This document shows positions 22,305-54,353 of a stretch of DNA of 64,000 bases, one piece after another. This stretch comes from Sphingobacterium sp. (GTDB lineage: Bacteria; Bacteroidota; Bacteroidia; Sphingobacteriales; Sphingobacteriaceae), in NCBI GenBank assembly GCA_031277685.1, contig JAITLV010000029.1, positions 1 to 64,000 of the forward strand, written 5' to 3'. Position 1 is the stretch's first letter. Each line of letters begins with the position of its first letter. The notes below the pieces were generated by a model. The model was not told the DNA's origin. It did not search any database and was given only the letters and a program-made list of their open reading frames with translations. The position numbers were made by a program, and so were the translations under genes.

Positions 22305-22334
22305 GATCATCCAAACTATCTAATACTATAAAAA

Positions 22335-22368
22335 AGCTCATCTGGATTTCCAGATGAGCTCTTTTTTT
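22335..22368. terminator. Bidirectional terminator between groEL and the lipoprotein gene
   Basis: Perfect 11-bp stem AGCTCATCTGG / CCAGATGAGCT with an ATTT loop; T-run on the plus side and A-run before it (T-run on the minus side). It slightly overlaps the 3' end of the convergent gene. Confidence 0.92.
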
Positions 22369-22711
22369 AATGTTTATGTTGATAGCGCCGATGATACTCA
22401 TCATAATCGCTTGGCGAATAATTTTCTTTTGGCCCCCACTCTTGTAGCTCATTATTAAAAAAATGCAACCAGTTTTTTCTCACATGTGTGGAATCTCCCG
22501 CGATAGTATATTCATAAATTTCTAAAATTCCATCGTTGTATTTCTTTGATGCAACGACAAGGTCTGGTTTTCCTATCTTTTGAATTACCTCCTGTTGGTT
22601 CATACCTACCTTAATGTTGGTGAAATCCCGCAGCTTCATTAACCCGCAACCCGCGAAAAGCGTAATGAATGCCAATACAATAAATGTACTGAAATACTTG
22701 TTTTTTAACAT
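22367..22711 (-). CDS. Small BamE/SmpA-like lipoprotein
   Basis: A 114-residue lipoprotein: signal and lipobox (IVLAFITLFAGCGL), then a compact domain with DFTNIKVGMNQQEVIQKIGKPDLV. That segment has the pattern of the BamE/SmpA-OmlA fold (GMxxxEVxxxxGxP). The end is basic and His-rich (DEYHRRYQHKH). The track starts at a TTG (22741); the ATG at 22711 gives a normal lipoprotein signal and is preferred. It could be an outer-membrane assembly accessory or an unrelated member of this small fold; context gives no hint. Confidence 0.7.
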   Translation of the reverse strand: MLKNKYFSTFIVLAFITLFAGCGLMKLRDFTNIKVGMNQQEVIQKIGKPDLVVASKKYNDGILEIYEYTIAGDSTHVRKNWLHFFNNELQEWGPKENYSPSDYDEYHRRYQHKH

Positions 22712-39949: not shown

Positions 39950-40061
39950 TATTTATTTAGATTAATTACACATAGAAAAGTAGCGTAACTCTAAATTTAC
40001 CGAAGGTCAAAAAAGTAAATAAAATTATTAATTTATAATAGGTTGATTATCAATTGTGAAA

Positions 40062-41264
40062 TTAATTCAATTGGTCGATTCTGACAATAAAATCTGTCGC
40101 TTGATCCAAGGTAAGACCAACGGATATAGCACCTGATTTGATGTCATAAACCCATACTTGATGCTGATCATCTGCATCATCTATTGTAATATAGGCTTTG
40201 CCGTTTTGAATGAGGACAGATTCTTTGCGCGTTCCTTTGTCGAAAGGTAGGCTTAATTTTCTTGTATTTTGGCTGATGAGATCGACAAGATAGTACTCAA
40301 ATTGATAGGTAGAATGATGATCGCTAAAGTCTGTATAGCGGTCTCTACGCTCGCTGCGGACGATAGCTTTGTTGTTTCCCAAATACCACATGCCATAGGC
40401 ATGATTATGGGTTTTAGTCGTTAAATTGAGGAAATAGCTGGGATTGACTTTGGTGGAATTGCTGTCAATTTTGAAAATTGCGGTAGGTTTTGAAGGGCTG
40501 TTACCTAAAGCTATTCCGGGGCAGGACATAAAATAGAAATTCCCATTTTCGTCATGAAAACTGTACGATTGGACGGTGTTGACCCCACCAGGATAAGTGG
40601 AACGTGTATCTTTTTGTATAGTTTTTAATTGAAGGGTAGCCTTATCCAATGTGGCGACATACATCGTATCTATCGTTGTAAAATCGGTCTCGTTAATGAC
40701 TTTATTAAAGGTGTAGCCAATCAGTAAATGATCCTGATGTATGGTACCAAATCCTACGGAAAGGATATTAAACTCAGTAGAGTTCAAAGGGAGGTGAACT
40801 TCTTGCTGTTGGTTGATGATAAAATCATTGACATTAATTTTATAGATCCATAACCGACGGTTTGTTTTGTTGTCTGAAGTAAATAGGAGTAAGGTAGTTT
40901 GATCAATCCAGTTTATATTTTCAATATGTTGATCTGGCAGGTCCAGCTGTGCAATTTCTTTTAACCCTTTTGATTCGAGTATGTATTTTCTGAATTTTCC
41001 AGCCCTTAAAAAATAATAGTGTTTGTCTTTGACGATGATGCTCCTGTCGAATTGTTGTGTTGGAATAGCTATACCATTTTTTGAGATCGTTAAATGCCCA
41101 CTATCGACTGTATTTGAGGTGATGATACTATTCCCGAGATCTTTATTCATCGTATACAGGCTGTACTTACCGTCTGTATTCCGTTCGCCATTATCCGTTC
41201 TACAGCCTATCACAAAGTTGAGTAATAGTATTGATAGGAATAGTGAAAAGCGGTTGGATAGCAT
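40062..41264 (-). CDS. Second DUF4374-like lipoprotein
   Basis: A 400-residue lipoprotein (lipobox LLLNFVIGCRT) that I align by eye with the DUF4374 protein downstream of the receptor. The block TDFTTIDTMYVATLDKATLQLKTIQKDTRS parallels TTTDTTYIGIFSYPELKFEKTIRDGRGS, and both are followed by similar blade repeats. It is more divergent than the other copy. It lies 30 bp after the FecR-like gene, so it is regulated with the sigma factor. Function is presumably in recognition of the same substrate. Confidence 0.7.
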   Translation of the reverse strand: MLSNRFSLFLSILLLNFVIGCRTDNGERNTDGKYSLYTMNKDLGNSIITSNTVDSGHLTISKNGIAIPTQQFDRSIIVKDKHYYFLRAGKFRKYILESKGLKEIAQLDLPDQHIENINWIDQTTLLLFTSDNKTNRRLWIYKINVNDFIINQQQEVHLPLNSTEFNILSVGFGTIHQDHLLIGYTFNKVINETDFTTIDTMYVATLDKATLQLKTIQKDTRSTYPGGVNTVQSYSFHDENGNFYFMSCPGIALGNSPSKPTAIFKIDSNSTKVNPSYFLNLTTKTHNHAYGMWYLGNNKAIVRSERRDRYTDFSDHHSTYQFEYYLVDLISQNTRKLSLPFDKGTRKESVLIQNGKAYITIDDADDQHQVWVYDIKSGAISVGLTLDQATDFIVRIDQLN

Positions 41265-41293
41265 GGAGATTAGGGCTTTGAAGTTCTTCTTAT

Positions 41294-41932
41294 TTAGATG
41301 ATATTAAATTGTACTTTCAGTTCGTGCTGGATCGTGGGAGCCAAAAATGTAAGTTCAGACTTGGATATGATGACCTGCTTGCCATTCTTTTGCGGTTTTA
41401 ATACAAAATATGTTTCTCCAAGTTTGAGTTCCTTCTTTTTATTTGTTCCGGAGAAACTAAAGGCAAAGTTTTTTTTGGGGGTGAACATCATGTTGCCTGA
41501 GCTTTTGAATACTCCTGTATCGGTATTGATTTCGGCGCTAGCATTCTTTCCCAGGATGATATCGTAGTTATTCTTGTTGATATATTTCAATTCCGCGCTT
41601 GTTCTATTATCAAAGACGGCAGCGTCTTTTTCTGCGTCCCTGCTAAATTTATAGAAGCCAAAACTTAGTAAGAATATAATTGTGGCGGCTATTCCAATAT
41701 ACTTGAAGTTGTATCTTTTTTGAGAAATGCTGGCTGGGATTTCGGATTGATCGATATGGGCACTCAGTTCAGCCCAGATATCCGTTTCTAGTTTTATTTT
41801 TTTATCTACGGAAATAGACAGCGGGTCTGACTCAAGCGTATCATCCAATAACCATTCTTCCACATGAAGTTTTTCTGTGGGAGAACATTGGCCCAAATGA
41901 TATTTCTCTATGAGTTTATGGTCTATTTTCAT
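41294..41932 (-). CDS. Short FecR-like anti-sigma/transducer protein
   Basis: A 212-residue protein. The cytoplasmic N-terminus (about 1-75: HKLIEKYHLGQCSPTEKLHVEEWLLDD) matches the anti-sigma region of FecR family proteins. One transmembrane helix follows (YIGIAATIIFLLSFGFYKF), then a short periplasmic part of about 120 residues. That part lacks much of the usual FecR beta domain and its C-terminal secretin/TonB-short-like domain; typical relatives are 300-400 residues. The start is the ATG at 41932. It follows the sigma factor gene by 49 bp. It may not sense the receptor in the normal way. Confidence 0.75.
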   Translation of the reverse strand: MKIDHKLIEKYHLGQCSPTEKLHVEEWLLDDTLESDPLSISVDKKIKLETDIWAELSAHIDQSEIPASISQKRYNFKYIGIAATIIFLLSFGFYKFSRDAEKDAAVFDNRTSAELKYINKNNYDIILGKNASAEINTDTGVFKSSGNMMFTPKKNFAFSFSGTNKKKELKLGETYFVLKPQKNGKQVIISKSELTFLAPTIQHELKVQFNII

Positions 41933-41981
41933 ATGATTTACTTCCTGACAAAAATACAAGATTTCTTCTTGATCATTAAAT

Positions 41982-42497
41982 TTAGGATATATATTCGGTA
42001 AGTTCTGTTTTTAATGTTTTTAATGCTCTCGAAATATGATATTCCACCGCTCTCTCAGAAATATAGAGTTTATGGGCTATTTCTTTGTTGGTGAGCCCCT
42101 GCTCTCTACTCATCCGGAAGACATTTTTACATTGCTTAGGCAGACTATCTACCAGATTTGATATCTTCTTCGCAAGTTCGTCGGCAATTAAGGAATTATC
42201 TATATAATGCTCTTCTCTTGTATTTGAAATATTGTCCAGGTGCTGTTGCCGTGATACTTTATTGCGGATGTATTCAAAAGTTTTGAGCTTTACGGATCTG
42301 ATCAGATAACGTTCTACCTCTACAAGACGAAGTTCCTCCCGTCGCTCCCAAAGCGACTTAAATACATCTTGTACAATTTCTTTGGAATGTTCTTCATCCT
42401 TGATACTGCTCAGGCAAAAAGCAAACATACCTTCCCAATGGCGAAGATATATTTGCTCAAAACCTGCTTTATCTATAATAAAAAACTCCTTTTCCAA
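41982..42497 (-). CDS. ECF RNA polymerase sigma factor
   Basis: A 171-residue extracytoplasmic-function sigma factor. Region 2 (about 10-75) has FEQIYLRHWEGMFAFCLSSIKDEEHSKEIVQDVFKSLWERRE. Region 4 (about 110-165) has LPKQCKNVFRMSREQGLTNKEIAHKLYISERAVEYHISRALKTLK, the usual -35-binding helix-turn-helix. It probably directs transcription of the receptor operon when released by the FecR-like partner. It is the first gene of the operon and has a TATCTTTG promoter box upstream, so basal expression likely depends on the primary sigma factor. Confidence 0.93.
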   Translation of the reverse strand: MEKEFFIIDKAGFEQIYLRHWEGMFAFCLSSIKDEEHSKEIVQDVFKSLWERREELRLVEVERYLIRSVKLKTFEYIRNKVSRQQHLDNISNTREEHYIDNSLIADELAKKISNLVDSLPKQCKNVFRMSREQGLTNKEIAHKLYISERAVEYHISRALKTLKTELTEYIS

Positions 42498-42523
42498 AAT
42501 AATCAGTTCCTATTTGTACTGGG

Positions 42524-42531
42524 CAAAGATA
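42524..42531 (-). promoter_or_regulatory. -7 promoter box of the sigma-factor operon
   Basis: Minus-strand TATCTTTG, perfect TAnnTTTG match, 26 bp before the sigma-factor ATG. No Fur box could be identified confidently. Confidence 0.5.
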
Positions 42532-42560
42532 GTCTTATTTAGATTCGTTTTAAATAAAAT

Positions 42561-43343
42561 TTATAATTCTTTTACGAATTCTTTGATTGCTTTGCCCGGA
42601 TCTGATGTTTTCATAAAGTTTTCACCGATTAAAAAGCTTTGGAAACCAGCTTTTTTCAATGCTTTAATGGTGTGAGGATTAGAGATACCACTTTCTGAAA
42701 CTTTAATGTATTCGGATGGAATTTTATCCAAAAGTTCATACGAATGATTTAGGTCTACAGAGAAATCTTTTAGGTTTCTATTATTGACACCTATGGCATC
42801 AATCTCGTCAAAAAGATTATCCAAAAGCTCGGCCTCATTATGCACTTCAAGCAATACATTGAGTCCGATCTGACGTGCATATGCTGCAAATTCCTGTACT
42901 TCTTCCTTTTTGAGGCAAGCAGCGATTAAAAGGATGACATCGGCACCATAGGCTTTGGCCTCGGCGATCTGATATTTATCCACAATAAATTCTTTGCGCA
43001 ATATGGGGATATTAATTGCTTCTCTTGCTTTGGAAAGATCTTCAAGACTGCCTTTGAAAAATTCTCCGTCCGTAAGAACAGATACAGCTGAGGCACCTGC
43101 TTCTTCATAGGCCTTGACGACATCTTCAACTTTAGCCGTACTGTTGATATCTCCTTTTGAAGGTGACGCTCGTTTATATTCAGCAATGATCCCTGTCTTT
43201 TCAGGATCTAATATAGATTCCCGAAGTGAAAGGCAGGTTACACCGAAATAAGGGTAGTTCAACAGTTCTTCGAATGGAACTTGGCTCTTCGCCTTTTCTA
43301 CTTCCAGTCTTTTGCGTTCAATGATTTTATCGAGTATAGTCAT
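42561..43343 (-). CDS. trpC: Indole-3-glycerol phosphate synthase
   Basis: The fourth step of tryptophan synthesis, closing the indole ring. A 260-residue TIM barrel: N-terminal IIERKRLEVEKAKSQ, catalytic GIIAEYKRASPSKGDIN, the VLTDGEFFKGSLEDL and PILRKEFIVDKYQIAEAKAYGAD strands, EVHNEAE, IGVNNRNLKDFSVDL, and SESGI. Normal length and not fused to trpF. The upstream 268-bp gap, where trpD might be expected, contains only repeats. trpF, trpB and trpA are also not downstream; the next gene is the ECF sigma factor. Confidence 0.96.
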   Translation of the reverse strand: MTILDKIIERKRLEVEKAKSQVPFEELLNYPYFGVTCLSLRESILDPEKTGIIAEYKRASPSKGDINSTAKVEDVVKAYEEAGASAVSVLTDGEFFKGSLEDLSKAREAINIPILRKEFIVDKYQIAEAKAYGADVILLIAACLKKEEVQEFAAYARQIGLNVLLEVHNEAELLDNLFDEIDAIGVNNRNLKDFSVDLNHSYELLDKIPSEYIKVSESGISNPHTIKALKKAGFQSFLIGENFMKTSDPGKAIKEFVKEL

Positions 43344-43346
43344 TTG

Positions 43347-43482
43347 TAGTATTAAGATATTAGTATTGAGTATTGAGATTTTAGTACTTTAAGCCTTCGG
43401 CAGACACATTTTCTCTATTTTAATTTTTTAGTATTGCAGTTTAAGTATTGAGACTTTGGTACTTCAAGCCTCGGGCGGACGC
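43347..43482 (-). repeat. Direct repeats and CTCAATACTAA motifs upstream of trpC
   Basis: Two imperfect 38-bp direct repeats (43370-43407 and 43445-43482, 31 of 38 identical) contain GTATTGAGA...TAAGCC-type blocks. Read in the direction of transcription, the segment next to trpC is TCTCAATACTCAATACTAATATCTTAATACTAC. This resembles the segment just before the groEL ATG. The gap from 43483 to 43611 holds no ORF. Confidence 0.6.
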
Positions 43483-43611
43483 GAGGTCTCTATTACGCTT
43501 ACATGCTTTTCATTGCTGTTCTCCTGATATATAAGTGATCATATTACACGGCTTAATGAGGCATAAGCTTGTATAAGTAAGGTCTAAATACTCCTATCTC
43601 AATACGCTATA

Positions 43612-44184
43612 CTAAAATAACCAGTTTTCAATTAATTTTTTTCCATTTGTTGTCAGTACCGATTCGGGATGGAACTGCATTCCTCTGACATCATATTCGG
43701 TATGCGTCAGCGCCATAATGATGCCGTTCTCGTCTACCGCCGTCACTTTGAGCGTTTCCGGTAATGTATCTCTATTTACAGCCCATGAATGGTAGCGGCC
43801 TATTCTGGAATCTTTCGGAAAATCCTGGAATAATTTTTCCGATTCATCGGTAACAATAATATTTGTAGCAACACCATGCAAAGGCTTTTCCATGTTAAAT
43901 AATGTACCTCCAAATACTTCAGCGATTGCCTGCTGGCCTAGGCAGATGCCCAATATACTCTTGTGTGGAGCATAGGTTCGGATCACCTCGAGCAATAAAC
44001 CTGCTTCTTCCGGAATTCCGGGACCTGGCGAAAGAAGTATTTTATCGAAAGCTTCCAGTTCCTCCAGTTTGAATTTATCATTTCTCAACACCACATAGTC
44101 CTGTCCCAATTCCTGTAACAAATGAACCAAATTATAGGTGAAAGAATCGTAATTGTCGATGACAACGATTTTATTGCTGCTCAT
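43612..44184 (-). CDS. trpG: Anthranilate synthase component II (glutamine amidotransferase)
   Basis: A 190-residue class I glutamine amidotransferase that supplies ammonia to TrpE. Catalytic triad: Cys in LGICLGQQAIAEVFGG, and His-Glu in GMQFHPESVLTTNG. It also has VVIDNYDSFTYNLVHLLQE and LLSPGPGIPEEAG. The same family includes PabA; its place behind trpE supports TrpG. The start overlaps the end of the chorismate-mutase-like ORF by 14 bp, so translation is coupled. Confidence 0.94.
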   Translation of the reverse strand: MSSNKIVVIDNYDSFTYNLVHLLQELGQDYVVLRNDKFKLEELEAFDKILLSPGPGIPEEAGLLLEVIRTYAPHKSILGICLGQQAIAEVFGGTLFNMEKPLHGVATNIIVTDESEKLFQDFPKDSRIGRYHSWAVNRDTLPETLKVTAVDENGIIMALTHTEYDVRGMQFHPESVLTTNGKKLIENWLF

Positions 44185-44464
44185 AACCTCTTGTTGTATA
44201 GTCCTGATTAAAGTAATTATCTATTTCTTGAAATATCGCTTGGACAAACTCTACTGGCAGGTCGAATTTCTGTGCCAGTGTTGCCTGATTGCTGCTGATA
44301 TTCTTAATAATATGCTGTTCGGTACTGGTATTGTCGTCCAATACTTTTGCCTTATTAAGATATGTTTTCCGCAAAGCTAGCAATTCCACAATGCGGTTGT
44401 CGATGGTGTCGATCGAAACATTGATATGTTGGGTATTGACACAGTATTCTAATGGTCTGATCAT
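44171..44464 (-). CDS. Chorismate-mutase type II-like small protein in the trp operon
   Basis: A 97-residue all-helical protein with the AroQ/PchB pattern: SIDTIDNRIVELLALRKTYLNKAKVL (long helix with the conserved Arg and Lys) and LPVEFVQAIFQEIDNYFNQDY at the end. The second E. coli active-site segment (DRERDLL) reads TSTEQHII, so at least one catalytic Arg seems replaced. It overlaps trpE (ATGA, 4 bp) and trpG (14 bp), so it is made together with anthranilate synthase. It may divert or sense chorismate, be an isochorismate-lyase-like enzyme, or be a regulatory subunit. Confidence 0.7.
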   Translation of the reverse strand: MIRPLEYCVNTQHINVSIDTIDNRIVELLALRKTYLNKAKVLDDNTSTEQHIIKNISSNQATLAQKFDLPVEFVQAIFQEIDNYFNQDYTTRGYEQQ

Positions 44465-45864
44465 AATGTTTCTGCTAACTGTAATGCTTTTCGCAAAGCG
44501 GCTATTTTATTGTTGACCTCCTGAAGTTCCATTTCAGGATCAGAGTCCAGTACAATTCCACCACCAGCTTGATAGTGGAGCGTATTCTGTTTGCTCAGGA
44601 ATGAGCGAATCATAATCGCATGATTAAAATCACCATTAAAGCCCATAAAACCAATTGCTCCTGAATAGAAAGAACGTTGTAATCCTTCATATCTGTCGAT
44701 GAGTGTCAGTGCCATATGCTTTGGTGCTCCCGATAGTGTGCCTGCGGGGTAGGTATCTCCCACAATGTCAAATGGATTGATATTGTCCTTTAGGACGCCG
44801 GTCACTTTGGAAACCAGGTGGATGATATGCGAGTAGTATTGTGGTTCCATATAAGATTCCACTTTAACCTGTGTACAGTGTCTGCTCAGATCATTACGGG
44901 CAAGATCTACCAGCATCACATGCTCGGAGGTTTCTTTTGGATCCTGTTTTAGCCTAGAGGCAATCTTTTGGTCTTCCTCCATGTTTCCGGTTCTTTTGAA
45001 CGTTCCAGCGATCGGGAAGATCGTTGCTTGCTTGCCGTGGATCCGTAATTGCGCTTCAGGTGACGATCCGAATAATTTAAAGTCACCATAATCGAAATAG
45101 AACAAGTAAGGGGAGGGGTTAATGGAGCGTAATGCGCGGTAGACATTAAATTCATCACCTGAAAATGGTGTTCGGAAGCCTCGGGATGGAACGATTTGAA
45201 AGACATCACCACGTTGGATATGTTCCTTCATCTTTTTGACCAATTGGCGATGTTCTTCATCGGTACGGTTGGAACTTTCCTCTCCGGCTAACTTGAACGT
45301 ATATTCTGGGAAGTTTTTGTTCTGAATCAGGAATTGCATGCGTTCCAGTTCTGATTCTTCATCTTCCAGAAGATGTTCGAAGATATAAAGCTGATTACGG
45401 AAATGGTCGATGGCGATAACATATTTGTAGATATGGTACTGCATAAATGGTATTTTCCGTGCCGGATCGACGGGTGTTGTCAACTTAATATCCTCAAAAT
45501 GTTCGATGCAGTCAAACGTAAAATAGCCGAATAAACCATTGGTGATCAGGTTCAGTTCGGAGATAGTCGAATCTTCAAAAGAATTTCTGAAATCGGAAAC
45601 CTCCTGACGTAATTCGATTTCTTGTGCATTTTTGACAATCCGTTCTTTGCCGGGATAGGTTAAGGTCAATTCCCGCTCATCCAGTTGGATCCCAGCGATG
45701 GGCTGGCAACAGATGTAGCTGATATTGTTGTCACGGCTATGGTAGTCGGAGCTTTCCAATAGGAGTGAATTCGGAAAGATATCCCGTAATCGAAGATAAA
45801 TACTCACCGGTGTTGTTGTGTCGGCGAGCAACTTTCTGCTGTGTGTTTTGAATTTATACTTCAT
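44461..45864 (-). CDS. trpE: Anthranilate synthase component I
   Basis: A 467-residue chorismate-utilising enzyme. The N-terminal regulatory domain carries the LLESSDY motif near residue 36-42, the tryptophan feedback site that distinguishes TrpE from PabB. The catalytic domain has GDVFQIVPSRGF, SPSPYLFYFDYGDFKLFGSSPE-like strands, PIAGTFKRTGN, EHVMLVDLARNDLSRHC and TYPAGTLSGAPKHMAL. It converts chorismate and glutamine (with TrpG) to anthranilate. Upstream lies a leader-peptide attenuator that should make expression depend on tryptophan supply. Confidence 0.96.
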   Translation of the reverse strand: MKYKFKTHSRKLLADTTTPVSIYLRLRDIFPNSLLLESSDYHSRDNNISYICCQPIAGIQLDERELTLTYPGKERIVKNAQEIELRQEVSDFRNSFEDSTISELNLITNGLFGYFTFDCIEHFEDIKLTTPVDPARKIPFMQYHIYKYVIAIDHFRNQLYIFEHLLEDEESELERMQFLIQNKNFPEYTFKLAGEESSNRTDEEHRQLVKKMKEHIQRGDVFQIVPSRGFRTPFSGDEFNVYRALRSINPSPYLFYFDYGDFKLFGSSPEAQLRIHGKQATIFPIAGTFKRTGNMEEDQKIASRLKQDPKETSEHVMLVDLARNDLSRHCTQVKVESYMEPQYYSHIIHLVSKVTGVLKDNINPFDIVGDTYPAGTLSGAPKHMALTLIDRYEGLQRSFYSGAIGFMGFNGDFNHAIMIRSFLSKQNTLHYQAGGGIVLDSDPEMELQEVNNKIAALRKALQLAETL

Positions 45865-45901
45865 TTTATTCTTTTTCTTCGCTGTGATAAATTTTATACA
45901 T

Positions 45902-45933
45902 AAAAAAACCCGATACTGGTTAGCATCGGGTTT
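45902..45933 (-). terminator. Attenuator terminator of the trp operon (with upstream antiterminator strand)
   Basis: On the minus strand AAACCCGAT / ATCGGGTTT form a 9-bp stem followed by a run of seven T, about 40 bp before trpE. The upstream segment AGCATCGGG (plus coordinates 45992-46000), inside the leader peptide ORF, is perfectly complementary over 9 bases to CCCGATGCT, the 5' arm of the terminator. It can therefore form the competing antiterminator. Confidence 0.88.
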
Positions 45934-45970
45934 GGAATTTCCATAAATGGTTTTGGTTGATTATGAAATA

Positions 45971-46048
45971 TTATGACAATACCAATTGATTCCCGATGCT
46001 TATTGCTCCAGGCCACCACCAATTTGTATTTGTATATCTTCGTGTCAT
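45971..46048 (-). CDS. trpL: trp operon leader peptide
   Basis: A 25-codon ORF, too short for the ORF track, starting ATG at 46048 and ending TAA at 45971. It encodes three consecutive tryptophans (NWWWPG, codons TGG TGG TGG at 46013-46021). It starts about 8 bp after a strong -7 promoter box and is followed by the antiterminator and terminator segments before trpE. A ribosome stalled at the Trp codons when charged tRNA-Trp is scarce would favour the antiterminator. The ORF-track entry 45894..46106 is an overlapping frame and not the real leader. Function is inferred by analogy with enterobacterial trpL; the sequence itself is unrelated. Confidence 0.88.
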   Translation of the reverse strand: MTRRYTNTNWWWPGAISIGNQLVLS

Positions 46049-46055
46049 TATTACA

Positions 46056-46085
46056 CAAATTTATAAAAAAAAATAAATAAGCAAA
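46056..46085 (-). promoter_or_regulatory. trp operon promoter
   Basis: Minus strand: TTTG (46082-46085), an 18-bp spacer, then TAAATTTG (46056-46063). This is a near-perfect Bacteroidota -33/-7 promoter. The expected transcription start lies within a few bases of the trpL ATG, so the leader message would be almost leaderless. Confidence 0.8.
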
Positions 46086-46122
46086 GTTTTTGTGATAAAA
46101 AAACAAAAATTACCCTTATTTC

Positions 46123-46800
46123 TTAATCATTTAATAAATCAGGACGTCTTTCTTGTGTTCTTTTTAGCTGTTGTTCGTGCTTCCAGGTGGCGATATTCGC
46201 TTCATGTCCACTGAGTAGAATATCGGGTACTTTGTGCCCTTTCCAGTCAGCGGGGCGTGTATAGATCGGCGCATCAAGCAATCCATCCTGAAAAGAATCT
46301 GAGAGCGCGGAGGTTTCGTCTGATAAAACTCCGGGGATTAACCGGATGATTGCGTCTGTAACAATTGCCGCCGGAAGTTCGCCGCCAGAAAGTACATAAT
46401 CACCTACCGAGATTTCCTTTGTCACATATATATCGCGGATGCGTTGGTCTATTCCCTTGTAGTGGCCACAGAGAATCATCATGTTACCTTTTGTCGAGAG
46501 CCCGTTTGCAATATCCTGATTGAATGTTTCACCGTCTGGGGTCATATAGATGATTTCATCGTATGTCCGTTCGGCTTGCAATTGTTCAATGCATTTGGCG
46601 AAGGGTTCGATCTGTAGTACCATACCTGAACCACCACCATAAGGGTAATCATCGACGCTTTTGTGCTTATTCGTTGAATAATCTCTTAAATTGTGCACAT
46701 AAATCTCGGCGAGGCCTTTATTCTTTGCACGTTGCAAGATGGAGTGTGCAAATGGACTTTCCAAAAGGTCTGGTAAGACCGTAATAATATCAAAACGCAT
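46123..46800 (-). CDS. trmD: tRNA (guanine-N1)-methyltransferase
   Basis: TrmD methylates G37 of tRNAs and prevents +1 frameshifts. A SPOUT trefoil-knot fold: starts [26 protein letters not shown], with [58 protein letters not shown], and SHPIYTRP-like [13 protein letters not shown]. The track begins at 46815. The ATG at 46800 gives the exact family start and lies 4 bp after a TATCTTTG box, so it is preferred (225 residues). It is transcribed away from the ABC-F gene. Confidence 0.96.
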
Positions 46801-46804
46801 GGCG

Positions 46805-46812
46805 CAAAGATA
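46805..46812 (-). promoter_or_regulatory. -7 promoter box of trmD
   Basis: Minus-strand TATCTTTG, 4 bp before the trmD ATG. It lies inside the 5' end of the ORF drawn in the track, which supports the shorter start. Confidence 0.55.
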
Positions 46813-46853
46813 CACAAAAATGCACCATTGTCTATTTATAAGATTGATTCGCT

Positions 46854-46861
46854 TATCTTTG
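46854..46861 (+). promoter_or_regulatory. -7 promoter box of the ABC-F gene
   Basis: TATCTTTG, with a TTG 23 bp upstream as possible -33. It sits inside the first codons of the ORF-track gene, so translation must start downstream of it. Confidence 0.5.
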
Positions 46862-46884
46862 TGCCAAAATTAAGTGTACATACA

Positions 46885-48516
46885 GTGATTGACGTAAATA
46901 ATATTTCTGTTTCCTTTGGGGGAACAACTCTTTTTTCAGATGTGTCTTTCTCCATCAATGAGAATGATAAGATTGCATTGATGGGTAAGAACGGTGCTGG
47001 TAAATCTACCCTGTTGAAAATTATCGCCGGAGTAGGAAAGCCTACGACTGGGAATGTTGCTGGGCCAAAAGATGCTATTATTGCTTATCTACCGCAGCAT
47101 TTGCTAACAGAGGATAATGTGACTGTCTTTGAGGAGACGTCTAAGGCTTTCGAGGAGGTATATGGTATGCGTGATGAGCTGGAGAAGCTGAATGAGCAGT
47201 TGAATATCCGTACTGACTATGAGTCTGACGATTATATGCAATTGATCGAACAGGTATCTGAATTAAGCGAAAAGTTCTATTCGATTGAGGAAGTCAATTA
47301 TGATGCGGAGGTTGAAAAGGTCTTGAAGGGACTCGGTTTTGAGCGTTCGGATTTTACAAGGCAGACGTCTGAGTTTTCCGGTGGCTGGCGGATGCGTATC
47401 GAATTGGCTAAAATATTATTGAAAAAACCTGATTTGATTTTATTGGATGAGCCTACGAACCATATGGATATCGAAAGTATTCAATGGCTGGAGGATTTCT
47501 TGGTCAATTCAGCGAAAGCAGTTATCGTTATCTCCCACGATAGGGCATTTGTCGACAACATTACCAATCGTACGATTGAGGTGACAATGGGGCGCATTTA
47601 TGATTATCGTGCTAAGTATAGCCATTACTTAGAATTACGCCAGGAACGTCGCCAGCATCAGCTAAAAGCGTATGAAGAACAACAACGTTTTATTGCGGAC
47701 AATCAGGAGTTTATTGATCGTTTTAGAGGTACTTATTCTAAAACACTACAGGTGCAGTCGCGGGTAAAGATGTTGGAGAAATTGGAAATTATTGAGATTG
47801 ATGAGGTAGATACATCGGCTCTGCGTCTTAAATTCCCCCCTTCCCCTCGCTCGGGTCAGTATCCTGTCATTGTTGAAGACCTGACGAAAGTTTATGATGA
47901 ACATGTGGTATTCCAAAAAGCAAGCATGGTCATCGAACGTGGCGAAAAAGTTGCTTTTGTAGGGAAGAACGGTGAAGGTAAATCGACCATGATCAAAGCG
48001 ATCATGGGTGAGATTGATTTCGAGGGTACACTGAAAGTAGGGCACAATGCGAAAATTGGTTATTTTGCTCAAAACCAGGCGGCATTGCTTGATGGTGAAA
48101 TGACCGTTTTTGATACCATTGATCAAATCGCGGTCGGTGATGTGCGTGTTAAAATGAAAGACCTTTTGGGTGCTTTTATGTTTAGTGGTGACGATACGAC
48201 AAAAAAGGTCAAGGTATTGTCCGGAGGGGAAAGAACACGTCTGGCAATGATAAAATTATTATTGGAGCCGGTGAATGTGCTGATCCTCGATGAGCCGACA
48301 AACCATTTGGATATGAAAACCAAGGATATTATCAAAGATGCTTTAAAAGATTTCGATGGTACATTGATTCTTGTTTCGCACGATCGTGACTTTTTGGATG
48401 GTCTGGCAGAAAAAGTCTTTGAATTTGGGAACAAACGTGTACGTGAGCACTTCGAGGATATCAAAGGTTTCCTAGAATATAAGAAGATGAGTAGCTTGAA
48501 GGATATTGAACGATAG
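46885..48516 (+). CDS. ABC-F family ATPase (ribosome-associated, Uup/EttA type)
   Basis: A soluble protein with two ABC ATPase domains in tandem and no membrane segments. Domain 1: GKNGAGKSTLLK, FSGGWRMRIELAKILLKKP, LILLDEPTNHMD. Domain 2: GKNGEGKSTMIK, LSGGERTRLAMIKLLLEP, LILDEPTNHLD. A charged helical linker (about 230-310) joins them, as in proteins acting in the ribosomal E site. The track starts at 46828, but a -7 promoter box lies at 46854-46861. The first in-frame start after it that gives the family N-terminus (IDVNNISVSFGG) is the GTG at 46885 (543 residues). It could be a translation factor; resistance activity is not implied. Confidence 0.9.
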   Translation: MIDVNNISVSFGGTTLFSDVSFSINENDKIALMGKNGAGKSTLLKIIAGVGKPTTGNVAGPKDAIIAYLPQHLLTEDNVTVFEETSKAFEEVYGMRDELEKLNEQLNIRTDYESDDYMQLIEQVSELSEKFYSIEEVNYDAEVEKVLKGLGFERSDFTRQTSEFSGGWRMRIELAKILLKKPDLILLDEPTNHMDIESIQWLEDFLVNSAKAVIVISHDRAFVDNITNRTIEVTMGRIYDYRAKYSHYLELRQERRQHQLKAYEEQQRFIADNQEFIDRFRGTYSKTLQVQSRVKMLEKLEIIEIDEVDTSALRLKFPPSPRSGQYPVIVEDLTKVYDEHVVFQKASMVIERGEKVAFVGKNGEGKSTMIKAIMGEIDFEGTLKVGHNAKIGYFAQNQAALLDGEMTVFDTIDQIAVGDVRVKMKDLLGAFMFSGDDTTKKVKVLSGGERTRLAMIKLLLEPVNVLILDEPTNHLDMKTKDIIKDALKDFDGTLILVSHDRDFLDGLAEKVFEFGNKRVREHFEDIKGFLEYKKMSSLKDIER

Positions 48517-48638
48517 CATCTAAATCAACAGATGTAAACGTATTCTGCTATTCTATCTTATATAATCATACGCTACAAGTTTTTGTTCAAATCCCGATAT
48601 TTGCCGTACAGAAATCAGAAACTTTATCTTTAAACGAA

Positions 48639-48710
48639 GTCTCCTGAGCTCAGCTGGTGGAGCAACTGACTAGTAACAAGTAGGTCATTGGTTCATCTCG
48701 GTAGGAGGCT
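48639..48710 (+). pseudogene. Degenerate tRNA-Thr-like gene
   Basis: The 72-nt sequence has an intact 7-bp acceptor stem (GTCTCCT / AGGAGGC, one G-U) and a correct D arm (GCTC...GAGC with AGCTGGTGG loop). The anticodon stem has only about 3 of 5 pairs. The T arm has lost the TTCRA loop consensus (TTCATCT) and most of its stem. The anticodon position reads AGT, rare for a bacterial tRNA-Thr. It resembles tRNA-Thr(TGT) with several changes. It is followed by a terminator. Most likely a decayed tRNA copy; sequencing error is an alternative. Confidence 0.65.
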
Positions 48711-48717
48711 CAGCTAT

Positions 48718-48751
48718 AAAAAGCGGCTTTATATAAAAAAGCCGCTTTTTT
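48718..48751 (+). terminator. Terminator after the tRNA-like sequence
   Basis: Perfect 11-bp stem AAAGCGGCTTT / AAAGCCGCTTT with a 7-nt loop and T-run. The rest of the 324-bp gap between the ABC-F and kinase genes shows nothing else. Confidence 0.92.
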
Positions 48752-48840
48752 CGCTTCAATTACTACGCTGGTATTGAACCTTTTGTTGTAAACCAACAGA
48801 TAATCCGTATATTGAACTCTCCTAAACATCAATTTTATTT

Positions 48841-50352
48841 ATGATCATTGGATTAGACATTGGGACATCATCTGCGAAAGCTGTTGCATTTGACTACGAA
48901 GGTAACATCTTGTCACAGTATAGTATACCTTATCCCATATTGAACCCGTCGGAAGGCTGGTATGAGCAAGATCCGGAGATTGTTTATGGCGCATGTATTG
49001 AGTCTATAGCACATGTAATGATTAGCTTAAAGCAATCTAGTGACGAGATTCCGAAACCCGTATGTATTTCAGTGAGCAGTGCGATGCACGGACTGATCGC
49101 TGTTGACTCGGCGGGAAAGCCACTTAGCAATTGCATGATATGGGCAGATCGTAGAAGCGAGGATATTGCGGTTGCCTTACAGGCAAGTGAGGTTGGCATG
49201 CTGTTGTACCAACAGACGGGCACACCAATACATCCTATGTCTTTGCTTTGCAAATTAATGTGGATAAAGTCTAACGATCAAAAATTATTTGCTCAGTCGC
49301 ACAAGTTTATCGGTATCAAAGAATTTCTTTTTTACAGGCTCTTTGGAGTTTATGTGATCGATCATTCCATTGCATCTGCAACAGGGCTTTTCGACATACA
49401 TCGCCTAACATGGTCTGATCAGGCCTTAAGATTGACGGGCATATCGGAAGAGCAACTAGCATCGCCAGTTCCGGTCGATTATGTTTTAAATATGCCTAGC
49501 CAAGAAATAGCGGCTTTGATGCATATTCCTGAAGATACCCCCTTTGTTATAGGTGGTAGCGATGGTTGTTTGGCTAATCTGGGGGTAGGGGCTATAAGTC
49601 CTGGGGTGGCTTCGGTGACTGTCGGTACCAGTGGAGCTATTCGTGTTGCAAGTTCGCAGGCAAATCAAGAAAAAAAACAAAGGCTATTTACCTACCTACT
49701 GAGACCAAATGAATATATAATTGGTGGCGCGGTTAACAATGGCGGTGTATTGCGCAACTGGTTTCGAGATAACTTTTTGCATGAATTTACCCAAATGGAA
49801 ACGGATGGAGATTCTTCTGCCTCGTTAAATGCTTTGGTCGACTCCGTTGTTCCCGGGGCAGAGGGCTTGATATTCTTGCCCTATTTAACTGGTGAACGGG
49901 CGCCACATTGGAATTCCAATGCAAAAGGCGTTTATTTTGGAATACAGTTGCATCATGGCAGGGCGCACTTTGCAAGGGCCATGATGGAAGGGATGTTGTT
50001 TGCAATTTACAATGTAGGGATCGCATTAGAGGAGAACACTGGCCCCATTCATACAATCTTTGCAAGCGGTGGCTTAGCGCGTTCATCGTTGTGGGTACAA
50101 ATGCTTGCAGATATTTTCAATAAACCTGTATTCACCAAAAATACGGTAGAAAGCTCTGCATGGGGAGCAGCATTGATAGGCTTGGAAGCATTGAGTATAC
50201 AGAAGGGGGAGCCTACCGTAAAAAACAAGCAAGCGCAGGGAACACAAGATACCGAACGCTATTACAAACCGAGTGCGGAGAATCACGCCGTATATATTAA
50301 AAACTTCCAGAAATTTGAACACCTGTATCAGATATTGGAAGGTGAGTTTTAA
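48841..50352 (+). CDS. FGGY-family carbohydrate kinase, probable gluconokinase
   Basis: A 503-residue sugar kinase with two actin-like domains. The phosphate-1 loop is IGLDIGTSSAKAVAFDYEGN, with sugar-site motifs SSAMHGLIAVDSAGKPL and NCMIWADRRSED. The ATP-binding half has TVGTSGAIRV, GGAVNNGGVLRNWF, FLPYLTGERAPHWN and FASGGLARSSLWVQMLADIFNKPV. Gluconate is favoured because a GntP permease gene follows 16 bp later; xylulose or a related sugar is possible. No 6-phosphogluconate dehydrogenase or GntR regulator is adjacent. Confidence 0.88.
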   Translation: MIIGLDIGTSSAKAVAFDYEGNILSQYSIPYPILNPSEGWYEQDPEIVYGACIESIAHVMISLKQSSDEIPKPVCISVSSAMHGLIAVDSAGKPLSNCMIWADRRSEDIAVALQASEVGMLLYQQTGTPIHPMSLLCKLMWIKSNDQKLFAQSHKFIGIKEFLFYRLFGVYVIDHSIASATGLFDIHRLTWSDQALRLTGISEEQLASPVPVDYVLNMPSQEIAALMHIPEDTPFVIGGSDGCLANLGVGAISPGVASVTVGTSGAIRVASSQANQEKKQRLFTYLLRPNEYIIGGAVNNGGVLRNWFRDNFLHEFTQMETDGDSSASLNALVDSVVPGAEGLIFLPYLTGERAPHWNSNAKGVYFGIQLHHGRAHFARAMMEGMLFAIYNVGIALEENTGPIHTIFASGGLARSSLWVQMLADIFNKPVFTKNTVESSAWGAALIGLEALSIQKGEPTVKNKQAQGTQDTERYYKPSAENHAVYIKNFQKFEHLYQILEGEF

Positions 50353-50368
50353 CTAGATGTAAATTATT

Positions 50369-51691
50369 ATGCCTCTAATCATCGTTATTTTGGGAGTAGC
50401 TTTACTACTTCTTTTAGTCACTGTCGTCAGGTTAAACACGATCTTTTCATTACTGATAACCTCTGTTGCGGTCGGTTTTGCTATGAATATGAATGCTGTC
50501 GATATCCTTAAATCAATTGAAACCGGAGTGAGTAGTACTATGGGCCAGTTGGCACTTTTGTTGGCTTTCGGGTCTTTACTGGGTAAATTGATGGCGGAGG
50601 GGGGAGCTGCAGAAAAGATTACAATGGAACTAACGGCTGTATTTGGCAGAAAGAACTTACCTTGGGCAATGGTTCTCACGGGTTTTTTAGTTGGAATTCC
50701 TTTATTTTACAATGTCGGTTTTATCGTCTTAGTACCGTTTGTTTTCATGGTATGTGCTTCCAATAAAATGCCCTTACTTTATGTAGCTATTCCACTGCTG
50801 GCAGCGCTGTCCGTGACGCATGGTTATTTGCCACCACATCCGGGTGCTACAGCCATAGCGGTTACTTACAATGCGGATATCGGTTTGACAATGGCTTATG
50901 GCATTGTTGTGGCAATTCCGGCCATCATTATCGGTGGACCACTCTTTGGCAGGATGCTTAAGCGTATTCCGACCAACCCACCGGCCGAGTTTTTTCCTGA
51001 ACACAATCAAGCAGATAGGAAAGAGCTTCCCGGATTTGTAATTAGTATATTTACGGGGCTGTTTCCAATAATTTTAATTGCTTTTGGTTCATTTGCACAC
51101 CTACTATTCCCAGAAGGTTCCTCTTGGCTGACGGCACTACGTTTCTTGGGTGACCCAGTGGTGGCTTTAATGATTGCATCTCTAGTGGCGATGTACACGA
51201 TGGGTATCCGCCAAGGTAAAAGTTTGCGGGAGCAGTCAGAAAGTGTGGAAGAAGCAATTCGTGGGATAATGATGATCCTTTTTATCATTGCAGCATCAGG
51301 CGCCTTCAAGCAAATTTTGGTGGATAGTGGTGTAGCGAACTACATCGCTGACCTAACCGCAGACCTTAGCTTGTCGCCACTTGTGCTTGCATGGCTAATA
51401 GCCGGCATCATTCGCCTAGTTATCGGTTCGGCAAGTGTTGCTGGACTCACGGCAGCGGGCATTATGCTCCCCATTGTGCAAGCAGGAGATGTTACTCCTG
51501 AATTAATGGTGCTAGCAACTGGAGCGGGGAGTCTCATGTTCTCACACGTCAATGATCCAGGGTTTTGGATGTTTAAATCTTATTTTGGAGTGAGCATGAA
51601 GGATACATTTCGTTCATGGACGGTGATGGAAACACTCGTTTCTGTTATTGGATTGATCGGTGTCTTGATTTTACACTGGCTTGGTCATTGA
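50369..51691 (+). CDS. gntP: Gluconate:proton symporter, GntP family
   Basis: A 440-residue membrane protein with about 12-14 hydrophobic helices. GntP-family landmarks are LLLAFGSLLGKLMAEGGAAEKI, GFLVGIPLFYNVGFIVLVPFVF, LSVTHGYLPPHPGATAIAVTYNAD and, near the end, LMFSHVNDPGFWMFKSYFGVSMKDTFRSW. It should bring gluconate or a similar aldonate across the inner membrane for the kinase just upstream. No outer-membrane partner is adjacent. Confidence 0.92.
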   Translation: MPLIIVILGVALLLLLVTVVRLNTIFSLLITSVAVGFAMNMNAVDILKSIETGVSSTMGQLALLLAFGSLLGKLMAEGGAAEKITMELTAVFGRKNLPWAMVLTGFLVGIPLFYNVGFIVLVPFVFMVCASNKMPLLYVAIPLLAALSVTHGYLPPHPGATAIAVTYNADIGLTMAYGIVVAIPAIIIGGPLFGRMLKRIPTNPPAEFFPEHNQADRKELPGFVISIFTGLFPIILIAFGSFAHLLFPEGSSWLTALRFLGDPVVALMIASLVAMYTMGIRQGKSLREQSESVEEAIRGIMMILFIIAASGAFKQILVDSGVANYIADLTADLSLSPLVLAWLIAGIIRLVIGSASVAGLTAAGIMLPIVQAGDVTPELMVLATGAGSLMFSHVNDPGFWMFKSYFGVSMKDTFRSWTVMETLVSVIGLIGVLILHWLGH

Positions 51692-51773
51692 CAGCGAATG
51701 AGAAAGTTTCCTATTGCCATACAGCGTTAGTTATAATGTCGCCTTTGTTGCTTGATAATCGCATCCGAAAGAT

Positions 51774-51860
51774 TTAAAGTTCTTTCGGACTTGGTTTCAC
51801 CCAGTCAATTGCTTCTCCAATAATTTTTAAAGTTGCCGCAAGACCGGCTTCATTAACCAT
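51774..51860 (-). other. Possible small ORF of unknown status
   Basis: A minus-strand frame ending IGEAIDWVKPSPKEL, with an internal ATG giving a 28-residue peptide; the track extends it to 63 residues. There is no family resemblance, no good start signal, and it is flanked by AT-rich DNA. It may be a gene remnant. The 408-bp gap between gntP and the TPM gene otherwise holds only a terminator. Confidence 0.2.
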
Positions 51861-51995
51861 CGTTGTAAAATAAATATGGTTTATTTTGAGGAACATAAAC
51901 AGGAGCGCGTATTGTTGCTGTAGCTCAACGAAACGATTATATGAAGTAATCGCAAAGATATACATGAATAGCTCAAACGAATATTAAATTATACC

Positions 51996-52027
51996 AGCCC
52001 ATAATTGACTGATTATGGGCTTTTTTA
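51996..52027 (+). terminator. Plus-strand terminator before the TPM gene
   Basis: Perfect 10-bp stem AGCCCATAAT / ATTATGGGCT with a 6-nt loop, followed by T. It probably ends the gluconate kinase-permease transcript, though 300 bp downstream of gntP. Confidence 0.85.
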
Positions 52028-52099
52028 TGTTCAAAAGAATTGTTTGCAATTTTTTTCTTAATATCGTGAAAATGAACCAAATTTTGTCGTTCTAAAACT

Positions 52100-53584
52100 A
52101 TGCAGAGATTACGTTATTTTTATGTTTTTTTGTTGATCTGGGTAGGAAGCTGTCTCACCGGATTATCAGCTTTCGGACAATTTACCGCCTATACCGTCGA
52201 CAATTTGCCAAGTCCGAAACTAAAGGGACAGGATTATTTTGTTTCCAATCCTGATGGGATTCTATCTTCCGGTACGGTCGCGGAACTGGATGGCTTATCG
52301 ACACAGATCGAAGCGGCCACCAAGAGTGAATTTGCCATTGTTGTCGTCAATGACTATGTCGGTGACAGCGATTTCGAATTTGCCTTAAAATTGTTCAATA
52401 CTTGGGGCATCGGTAAGAAAGAAAGCAATAATGGGCTATTGCTGTTTATCGCTAAAGACCGACGAGAATACCGTTTTATTACGGGATATGGTATGGAAAG
52501 CACCTTGCCGGATGCCTATCTAAAACGAATAGGCGAGAAGTATCTGGTGCCTAATTTTAGAGACGAAAATTATGATCAAGGTGTCCTCGAGGCTTCACAG
52601 TTTATAAAAACAATACTTACCTCGCCGGATAGCAAAGCTGAGCTGGAACGCTTAATGCCAGAGGCAACGCCGGTCTGGAGTTTTAAGAGTCCTATCTTAC
52701 GAAATTCATTATTGGTATTGGGTTTATTTGCTATTTGCTATATCTGGTTGGGTGAGGTGACCCGGGCGATCAAAGGGCAGCTGACCAAAAAAAGTAAGTA
52801 TTTTCCACCTTTGGTCAGCGGCTGTGGCTGTATGGGAATGTTAATGTTTGCCAGTGTATTTATATGTGCTTTTGCATTGAATAATTTTGAAGTTGTCTAT
52901 CAATGGAAAAATCTGCCCTACTTTATTTTTATATTTGGCAGTATTACACTGGCGATGAAATACAATGCCAGCAGGACACAGATTGTCAATTCCTATCGTG
53001 ATGAAGAGAATATTCAGAAGGCCCTGCGCAAATTTCGTGTTTGGGGACTTATTCCCTTGCTGTTTAGCCCATTGGCGCTATTCGACCTCTTTGGGTTAAA
53101 TAAGCGCATCCGAAAAAATGAACTTCGGTTGGCTCCACCAGATCAGTCTGGGCGTTGGTTACGTATGAATAAGGATGATGCATCTACCCGGGAAAGCGCA
53201 TACTTGGATAAGGGACAGCTTATGGAGGAGAAAATTGGCAGCCGGTCTTATGAGATTTGGGTCGATCAGGCAAGCAATGAAACCAAGTTAGTTCCCTGGG
53301 ATGAAAATGCTGGCTATGTTGATTGTCCCGAGTGCCATTACCGTACGTTTGAAACCGGACTTTCACATACGATCCGATCGGCGACGTATAGTTCGCAAGG
53401 ACTGGAAGAACGTTTTGATAAGTGTAAGAACTGTGGACATCGGGTATCTCATGGTGAGCATGCTACTCCTGTCAGAGTACGTTCATCATCAAGTAGCTCC
53501 GGAGGAGGATCTAGCAGCAGTGGTGGCGGTGGAAGTTTTGGCGGCGGCTCGTCTGGTGGCGGTGGTGCAGGAGGACGATGGTAA
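52100..53584 (+). CDS. TPM-domain membrane protein with glycine/serine-rich tail (YgcG-like)
   Basis: A 494-residue envelope protein: signal peptide (LLIWVGSCLTGLSAFGQ), then a TPM domain (about 45-180: VSNPDGILSSGTVAELDGLSTQIEAATKSEFAIVVV, FNTWGIGKKESNNGLLLFIAKDRREYRFITGYGMES). Three hydrophobic helices follow in the middle. Next is a cysteine pair motif pair (CPECHYRTFE, CKNCGHRV) that looks like a zinc ribbon. The end is a long Gly/Ser tail finishing GGGGAGGRW. TPM proteins have phosphatase-like activity or photosystem-assembly roles elsewhere; the role here is unknown. The zinc-ribbon insertion is unusual compared with short YgcG proteins. Confidence 0.85.
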   Translation: MQRLRYFYVFLLIWVGSCLTGLSAFGQFTAYTVDNLPSPKLKGQDYFVSNPDGILSSGTVAELDGLSTQIEAATKSEFAIVVVNDYVGDSDFEFALKLFNTWGIGKKESNNGLLLFIAKDRREYRFITGYGMESTLPDAYLKRIGEKYLVPNFRDENYDQGVLEASQFIKTILTSPDSKAELERLMPEATPVWSFKSPILRNSLLVLGLFAICYIWLGEVTRAIKGQLTKKSKYFPPLVSGCGCMGMLMFASVFICAFALNNFEVVYQWKNLPYFIFIFGSITLAMKYNASRTQIVNSYRDEENIQKALRKFRVWGLIPLLFSPLALFDLFGLNKRIRKNELRLAPPDQSGRWLRMNKDDASTRESAYLDKGQLMEEKIGSRSYEIWVDQASNETKLVPWDENAGYVDCPECHYRTFETGLSHTIRSATYSSQGLEERFDKCKNCGHRVSHGEHATPVRVRSSSSSSGGGSSSSGGGGSFGGGSSGGGGAGGRW

Positions 53585-53600
53585 TCCTCAATTTAGGGGC

Positions 53601-53666
53601 AAAAAAAAGGTTTCCAAACGGGGAGAATGAAAACCTTAAATAACCAATTATAAACCTAAATTATGA
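53601..53666 (-). ncRNA. Candidate small RNA between the TPM gene and the lipid cluster
   Basis: On the minus strand a strong promoter (next entry) is followed within about 65 bases by a terminator, AAGGTTT / AAACCTT with eight T (53601-53637). No start codon with a useful ORF lies between. The predicted transcript runs towards the 3' end of the TPM gene without entering it. It may be a regulatory RNA, or the remains of a lost gene's leader. Start and end positions are estimates. Confidence 0.45.
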
Positions 53667-53671
53667 TGACA

Positions 53672-53702
53672 CAAATATAGTGTATTTATTACACTATCAA
53701 AA
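53672..53702 (-). promoter_or_regulatory. Minus-strand promoter with embedded palindromic operator
   Basis: Minus strand: TTTTG (53698-53702), an 18-bp spacer, then TATATTTG (53672-53679), the same spacing as the trp promoter. The spacer and the first bases of the -7 box form a perfect 8-5-8 palindrome, ATAGTGTA-N5-TACACTAT (53677-53697). This is a typical position for a repressor. No gene follows on this strand before a terminator. Confidence 0.65.
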
Positions 53703-53747
53703 GTTTTTTTTAAAAAAAATAAAAAAAGTGAGCTACATAGCATATTT

Positions 53748-54353
53748 ATGATTTCTGTTTACAAATTAAAACCAAAGTTTCAGCAGTTATTGATGCCGAT
53801 ACTAACCTTTTTGAATCGGAAGAGGGTAACGGCCAATCAAATTACTATTGGCTCGATCATCTTATCTTTGGTCATTGCTGTATTGTTCTGGTATGCCGAT
53901 CGGGTGACAATTTTCTATCTGGCCTTACCAATCGGCTTACTATTACGGATGGCGCTCAATGCACTGGATGGTATGATGGCGCGTCTTTTTAATCAAATGA
54001 GTAAAAAAGGAGAGGTTTTGAATGAGGTAGGCGATATCGTCTCCGATGTAATGATCTTTTTCCCCTTACTGAAATTTCATCCGGAAAGTCTATATCTGGT
54101 CATTGGCTTTATAGTTTTGAGCATTATCAATGAATTTTGTGGTCTCATCGGAAAGGTGATAGCCAATGATCGCCGTTATGACGGACCAATGGGGAAAAGT
54201 GATCGCGCGCTACTGCTAGGCCTTTATGGTATTTTGAGCGTGTTACATATCCCGATAACAGGAATTTCAGTCTATATTTTTGCTGTTTTATGTTTGTTGT
54301 TGGTGTTGAGTTCATTAACACGACTGAGAAAGGCATTGGTAGTACATGAATGA
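53748..54353 (+). CDS. CDP-alcohol phosphatidyltransferase, YnbA-like, with Asn-substituted motif
   Basis: A 201-residue inner-membrane enzyme with about six helices, of the family that joins a CDP-activated lipid to an alcohol. The catalytic motif DxxDGxxAR-x8-GxxxDxxxD is present as NALDGMMAR...GEVLNEVGD, i.e. the first and third Asp are Asn. The rest (ANDRRYDGPMGKSDRALLLGLYG) resembles the E. coli YnbA group. The start is the ATG after a 163-bp gap. It overlaps the CdsA-like gene by 8 bp. Product unknown; the metal and alcohol sites may be altered, or the enzyme may be specialised. Confidence 0.82.
   Translation: MISVYKLKPKFQQLLMPILTFLNRKRVTANQITIGSIILSLVIAVLFWYADRVTIFYLALPIGLLLRMALNALDGMMARLFNQMSKKGEVLNEVGDIVSDVMIFFPLLKFHPESLYLVIGFIVLSIINEFCGLIGKVIANDRRYDGPMGKSDRALLLGLYGILSVLHIPITGISVYIFAVLCLLLVLSSLTRLRKALVVHE

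Follow-up and report, generated by a model that had tools for sequence, protein, structure and literature searches.

Leader-peptide attenuation of trp operons

In the trp leader of Escherichia coli (trpL; Rfam RF00513), a leader peptide with consecutive Trp codons is coupled to mutually exclusive antiterminator and terminator structures, and region 2 is the direct partner of region 1. Among Bacteroidota, the Bacteroid-trp element (RF01692; Weinberg et al., 2010; PMC2864571) consists of a short open reading frame (ORF) with TGG-TGG-TGG, a long hairpin that brackets these Trp codons and, further downstream, a terminator. In Flavobacterium psychrophilum, leader-peptide attenuation has been proposed to operate ahead of amino-acid operons, including a Bacteroid-trp element before the trp operon; this bacterium belongs to a family other than Sphingobacteriaceae, whose trpE leaders are not covered in the parts of the two reports considered here (PMC9723704, PMC6414381). 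Finally, the trpE attenuator of Sinorhizobium meliloti (rnTrpL/peTrpL; PMC7298713), for which roles in trans have been shown as well, carries its leader ORF at the extreme 5' end of the RNA. All these systems resemble the locus examined here, a leader upstream of trpE in a stretch of 64,000 nucleotides from Sphingobacterium sp. (contig JAITLV010000029.1; hereafter, the window), where transcription of the trpE-trpG-trpC operon is very probably under ribosome-mediated attenuation. The mechanism as such is not new given that Rfam already holds Bacteroid-trp: this is ordinary Trp leader-peptide attenuation. So how does this leader relate to the known ones, and how well does its proposed mode of action hold up across relatives?

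Anatomy of the trpE leader

The leader is preceded by trmD and followed, on the same strand, by three genes of tryptophan synthesis:

44461-45864, minus strand: trpE, anthranilate synthase component I (NCBIfam trpE_most, 413.7 bits, E = 1.1e-123, below the curated cut-off of 517.7)
43612-44184, minus strand: trpG, anthranilate synthase component II (NCBIfam trpG_papA, above the cut-off)
42561-43343, minus strand: trpC, indole-3-glycerol phosphate synthase (NCBIfam NF001377, above the cut-off)

A 97-codon ORF (44171-44464, minus strand) at the trpE-trpG junction overlaps both genes and weakly resembles chorismate mutase and isochorismate lyase, below the curated cut-offs; trpG and trpC are separated by some 270 nt (43344-43611, minus strand) with repeated words similar to AATACTAA and TCAATACT and no evident gene. 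The assembly from which the window derives is probably mixed: it amounts to 8.4 Mb, split over 342 contigs, its contamination is 9%, and the genomes of relatives measure 2.6-6.9 Mb.

The leader itself comprises the following elements:

46056-46085, minus strand: Bacteroidota-type promoter, read from the sequence, with the position of the -7 box after PMC9723704
45971-46048, minus strand: leader ORF of 25 codons, MTRRYTNTNWWWPGAISIGNQLVLS, with homologous ORFs in the collected Sphingobacterium leaders
46020-46030, minus strand: region 1, AATACAAATTG, 5' arm of the anti-antiterminator (partner-swap test with region 1')
46013-46021, minus strand: putative regulatory Trp codons 10-12 (TGG TGG TGG), the position of the first Trp being kept in relatives
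45992-46000, minus strand: region 2, AGCATCGGG, 5' arm of the antiterminator, within the ORF (9/9 complementary to region 3; pairing in relatives)
45978-45988, minus strand: region 1', CAATTGGTATT, 3' arm of the anti-antiterminator, which encloses region 2 (partner-swap test)
45948-45962, minus strand: the 15-mer AATCAACCAAAACCA, with exact copies across Sphingobacterium genomes
45902-45933, minus strand: intrinsic terminator, regions 3 and 4, AAACCCGATGCT-AACC-AGTATCGGGTTT, with a T run (sequence; covariation)

The near-perfect promoter and the 25-codon ORF with three consecutive Trp codons that an earlier note had described are present exactly as claimed: on the minus strand, the -33 element TTTG (46085-46082) and the -7 box TAAATTTG (46063-46056) are separated by an 18-nt spacer, and the leader ORF extends from the ATG at 46048 to the TAA stop at 45971. 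The ATG lies only 7 nt past the -7 box, and a box with an ATG 3-10 nt downstream is kept in nearly all relatives. In F. psychrophilum, the -7 box spans positions -12 to -5, and leaderless mRNAs make up 5.5% (PMC9723704); if the same position applies to the leader described here, transcription is predicted from the promoter spacing to start at about 46051, leaving a 5'UTR of 3 nt. Thus, of the almost leaderless start that had been suggested, the short distance between box and ATG stands and is shared across the family, and the figure of 3 nt is a prediction. About 3.7% of the 5'UTRs of Bacteroides thetaiotaomicron are shorter than 10 nt (PMC7366714), and a near-leaderless trp attenuator has a precedent in S. 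meliloti because the RNA of the trpE attenuator begins with the leader ATG there (PMC7298713); that leader encodes a 14-residue peptide, comes from the Alphaproteobacteria and is unrelated in sequence. In the lowest-energy fold, the start of the leader, AUGACA (46048-46043, minus strand), can pair with UGUCAU at its end (45979-45974), which could mask the start codon; by eye, this pairing is kept in only part of the genus.

Both complementarities proposed in the earlier note are borne out: region 2 (46000-45992) is complementary at 9 of 9 positions to CCCGATGCT, part of the 5' arm of the terminator, and the additional helix that flanks the Trp codons, regions 1 (46030-46020) and 1' (45988-45978), pairs at 10 of 11 positions. 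The terminator hairpin (45933-45906) has 12 pairs, and its T run reaches 45902. Counted from the predicted start, the first 150 nt of the RNA have a folding energy of -37.9 kcal/mol (z = -2.84), which 3 of 200 shuffles equal, and the fold shows both the terminator hairpin and the helix that flanks the Trp codons, the state to be expected, in this model, under plentiful tryptophan. Compared to E. coli trpL, the arrangement differs in that region 2 is part of the ORF, with the 1:1' helix enclosing it, and in that there is no Shine-Dalgarno leader.

From the computed parts of the leader, their conservation and their covariation, we infer translation, stalling, termination and a response to tryptophan along the following lines. 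RNA polymerase would start some 3 nt upstream of the leader AUG, with a ribosome engaging the 25-codon leader at once. With ample charged tRNA-Trp, this ribosome would move past the three Trp codons, region 1 would pair with region 1' and keep region 2 in the inner hairpin, and region 3, with region 2 held in this way, would pair with region 4, so that transcription would stop at 45902. When charged tRNA-Trp is scarce, the ribosome would stall at codons 10-12, its footprint extending over region 1 into the beginning of the inner hairpin; region 2 would then be left free for region 3, the terminator would be blocked, and trpE would be transcribed. The stop codon of the 25-codon leader is located 18 nt past region 2, and therefore a ribosome waiting there would leave region 2 uncovered, a point against this scheme.

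Conservation and covariation among relatives

The genomes matched by a pattern derived from the leader belong mostly to Sphingobacterium (S. multivorum, S. athyrii, S. faecium, S. mizutaii and others), which assigns the window to this genus; Daejeonella and Parapedobacter also occur among the matches. In 67 distinct Sphingobacterium leaders, chosen for the presence of the 15-mer and TGGTGG, the ATG follows TTTG by 6-10 nt in every case, and the first Trp is codon 10 or 11 in 67 of 67, a figure to be read with the selection for TGGTGG in mind. The length of the ORF varies among the distinct leaders of the genus between 15 and 27 codons, and so do the surrounding peptide and the position of the stop codon, which accordingly can precede region 2, follow it closely or lie far downstream of it.

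Given that this set was preselected, a further sample was taken that consisted of 80 trpE upstream regions, collected with disregard of any leader and including 74 from other genera of the family. A leader was called by script in 79 of these, and 65 of the 80 passed a strict test, namely an ATG 3-10 nt after TTTG opening an ORF of 12-40 codons with adjacent Trp codons, compared to 3 of 1600 shuffles. Almost all of the 80 sampled trpE genes have leaders with 2-4 Trp codons; in one sampled genus, W-L-W replaces WWW. The comparison with related genomes that the earlier note had proposed thus recovers both the Trp codons and the complementarity, and, as judged from the sequences, the attenuator arrangement before trpE is conserved across the Sphingobacteriaceae.

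The helices were tested in an alignment of 32 non-redundant leaders, with shuffles that leave the relatedness of the sequences in place. For the antiterminator (2:3), the share of paired cells over the 32 relatives is 95.4%, a level that none of 500 such relatedness-retaining shuffles matches and that falls to 22-43% when the partner is slid; 9 cells are altered on both sides, and at one pair G-C is exchanged for A-U in 8 sequences. In the terminator (3:4), 96.1% of cells are paired, and 6 pairs are changed on both sides, in 21 such cells. One and the same alignment column, 147, exchanges also with its terminator partner, in 9 sequences, and hence region 3 shows covariation with each of the two arms that compete for it. 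The MAFFT alignment is poor around region 1', and for this reason the 1:1' helix was assessed by partner swapping, in which region 1 of each species was paired with region 1' of every other species. Own partners gave a duplex of -8.5 kcal/mol versus -6.2 kcal/mol for swapped ones, that is, were better by 2.3 kcal/mol on average, and 0 of 2000 permutations, relatedness again being retained, did as well. The inner hairpin alone yielded no covariation beyond invariance in the swap test, which counts against the attenuation model.

Folding with a stalled ribosome

In these calculations, which yield equilibrium energies, a mask of simple, fixed extent stood in for the ribosome. Over the 32 non-redundant relatives, the antiterminator forms with a mean probability of 0.99 when a ribosome is stalled at the Trp codons; the value is 0.42 if the ribosome is absent and 0.09 if it sits at the stop codon, and stalling raises the probability over the free state in 32 of 32. 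As long as region 3 has yet to be transcribed, the pairing probability of region 2 is 0.97 in the free RNA versus 0.57 in the stalled state. The folding comparison suggested in the earlier note therefore comes out as anticipated for the relatives, whereas for the window's own leader the two states are told apart only before region 3 is made (region 2 paired at 0.985 free and 0.64 stalled). Once region 3 is present, the antiterminator probability for that leader is 0.99 free, 1.00 stalled and 0.98 at the stop codon, such that the equilibrium model does not separate the three ribosome states for this sequence; the antiterminator wins in all of them, and the switch in this species must therefore rely on the order of folding.

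Weighing the explanations

The locus has the general layout of an attenuator, with a short ORF holding consecutive Trp codons between promoter and trpE and a terminator ahead of the structural gene, and in computation the antiterminator is freed by a stalled ribosome, with the proviso that the equilibrium model does not discriminate the window's own sequence after region 3. Because the helices covary and masking by a stalled ribosome frees the antiterminator in all 32 relatives, attenuation is very likely; the reading of the locus as classical ribosome-mediated attenuation in a Bacteroidota trp operon draws on anatomy, conservation, covariation and folding alike. Could the structured leader instead sense uncharged tRNA, in the manner of a T-box, or bind a protein as in TRAP-like systems, the Trp-rich ORF being incidental? 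The conserved 15-mer outside the ORF and the helices, which is superfluous for plain attenuation, would fit such a sensor. However, an Rfam cmscan of positions 40000-54000 found nothing at the gathering score, T-box and other sensor RNAs included; the first Trp stays at codon 10 or 11 in the Sphingobacterium leaders although the nearby peptide and the stop codon vary; and the 1:1' helix that brackets the Trp codons covaries. We consider a sensor of this kind highly improbable.

A primarily translational role, in which the leader ORF would act via reinitiation or coupling at trpE rather than on transcription termination, appears no less remote. Leader ORFs in many bacteria have indeed been proposed to boost downstream translation by reinitiation (PMC4833913). 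Yet the stop codon of this leader lies about 105 nt from the trpE start, and the covariation across relatives extends to both the terminator with its U run and the competing antiterminator.

Relationship to Bacteroid-trp

The earlier note had called the leader an unrelated sequence, and here we have to conclude otherwise. In the same genome, on another contig, a Bacteroid-trp-type leader with WWW, encoding its own peptide, MIITVLNKAWWWHDE, precedes trpD-trpF-trpB-trpA, and a covariance model built from the trpE leaders finds this trpD leader with 46.1 bits (E about 5e-9), from which it follows that the two are homologous. The trpE leader scores 19.6 bits against RF01692, below the gathering score of 49, with a full-length alignment in the right register; the Rfam threshold is not reached, and the evidence speaks for common ancestry. 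Against RF00513 (Trp_leader), the score is 20.2 bits, mostly via the terminator, where the gathering score is 41, so that there is no sequence relationship to E. coli trpL at threshold. On these model comparisons, the trpE leader is a divergent, homologous sister branch of Bacteroid-trp that the Rfam threshold leaves unrecognised; it is thus not assigned to RF01692, although it would operate in the same manner. RF01692 matches occur in 87 of 94 Sphingobacterium genomes, 12 of them above the cut-off, mostly elsewhere than in the trpE leader. The two leaders differ in that the ATG of the trpD leader is found about 17 nt past a box-like TATTTG, compared to 7 nt past the -7 box in the trpE leader, and in that only the latter has the 15-mer.

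Across the class, the trpE-leader model recovers full-length leaders with WWW or WW before trpE, trpB or trpD in other families, and 5 of 20 such loci that were tested pass RF01692. In Bacteroidia, then, the leader is observed ahead of the first trp gene of the operon, be it trpE, trpB or trpD, in many cases below the Rfam threshold. A further match of the model in the window, at 22330-22463, covers the terminator only and was rejected.

The conserved 15-mer

The 15-mer is found as an exact copy in 81 of 94 Sphingobacterium genomes, about once in each and nearly always directly upstream of trpE, compared to 3 matches of the reversed pattern in all 94. It lies outside the leader ORF and the known helices, and 14 of its bases form the longest run without any change in the alignment, in a set that was itself selected for the 15-mer with at most two substitutions. 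The leaders of Daejeonella, which differ in peptide and region 2, retain its first 14 bases exactly; looser forms occur in other genera, in only part of which they exceed what shuffling predicts, and the 15-mer is missing from two Sphingobacterium species. In the trpE leaders of these two, the GC stem is longer and the U tract weaker.

It is conceivable, if rather unlikely, that the 15-mer provides a second input to the attenuator, either as an RNA arm that switches to pairing with region 1' and thereby stabilises the antiterminator, or as the target of some protein or RNA; such an input is an addition to attenuation and not an exclusive alternative to it. Apart from the contrast between the exact copies and the reversed pattern, this possibility is suggested by the stalled-state fold of the window's RNA, in which region 1' pairs with ACCAA of the 15-mer, and by mean duplex energies with the 15-mer of -5.4 kcal/mol for region 1' and -6.8 kcal/mol for the Trp codons. 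These duplexes, however, are not significantly better than those of shuffles (mean p = 0.29 and 0.18, respectively), the 15-mer varies or is absent in other genera and in two Sphingobacterium species, and the window's genome is devoid of a second full-length copy able to encode an antisense partner.

Several more specific proposals were discarded. A duplex between the 15-mer and the Trp codons, matching at 7 of 9 positions and proposed as UGGU:ACCA by RNAalifold, involves invariant columns, fares weakly in the shuffle test and loses CCA in other genera; pairing against every other segment of the leader gave no convincing partner. The 15-mer as the loop of a conserved hairpin is folded in some species only. 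The idea that it imitates the anticodon loop of tRNA-Trp was dropped for want of support, no tRNA having been found by pattern search and by ARAGORN on 20 of 43 matching places, and the idea that it is the target of a fully complementary RNA acting in trans is at odds with the window's genome, where a single copy is present when both strands are counted.

Implications

Taken at this strength, the findings point to a trp attenuator before trpE throughout the Sphingobacteriaceae that Rfam's curated threshold has missed. The split trp pathway of Sphingobacterium would be served by two homologous attenuators, one for each operon. In functional terms, the ORF with its predicted near-leaderless start and the 15-mer raise testable questions on how attenuation operates in a phylum that lacks Shine-Dalgarno initiation.
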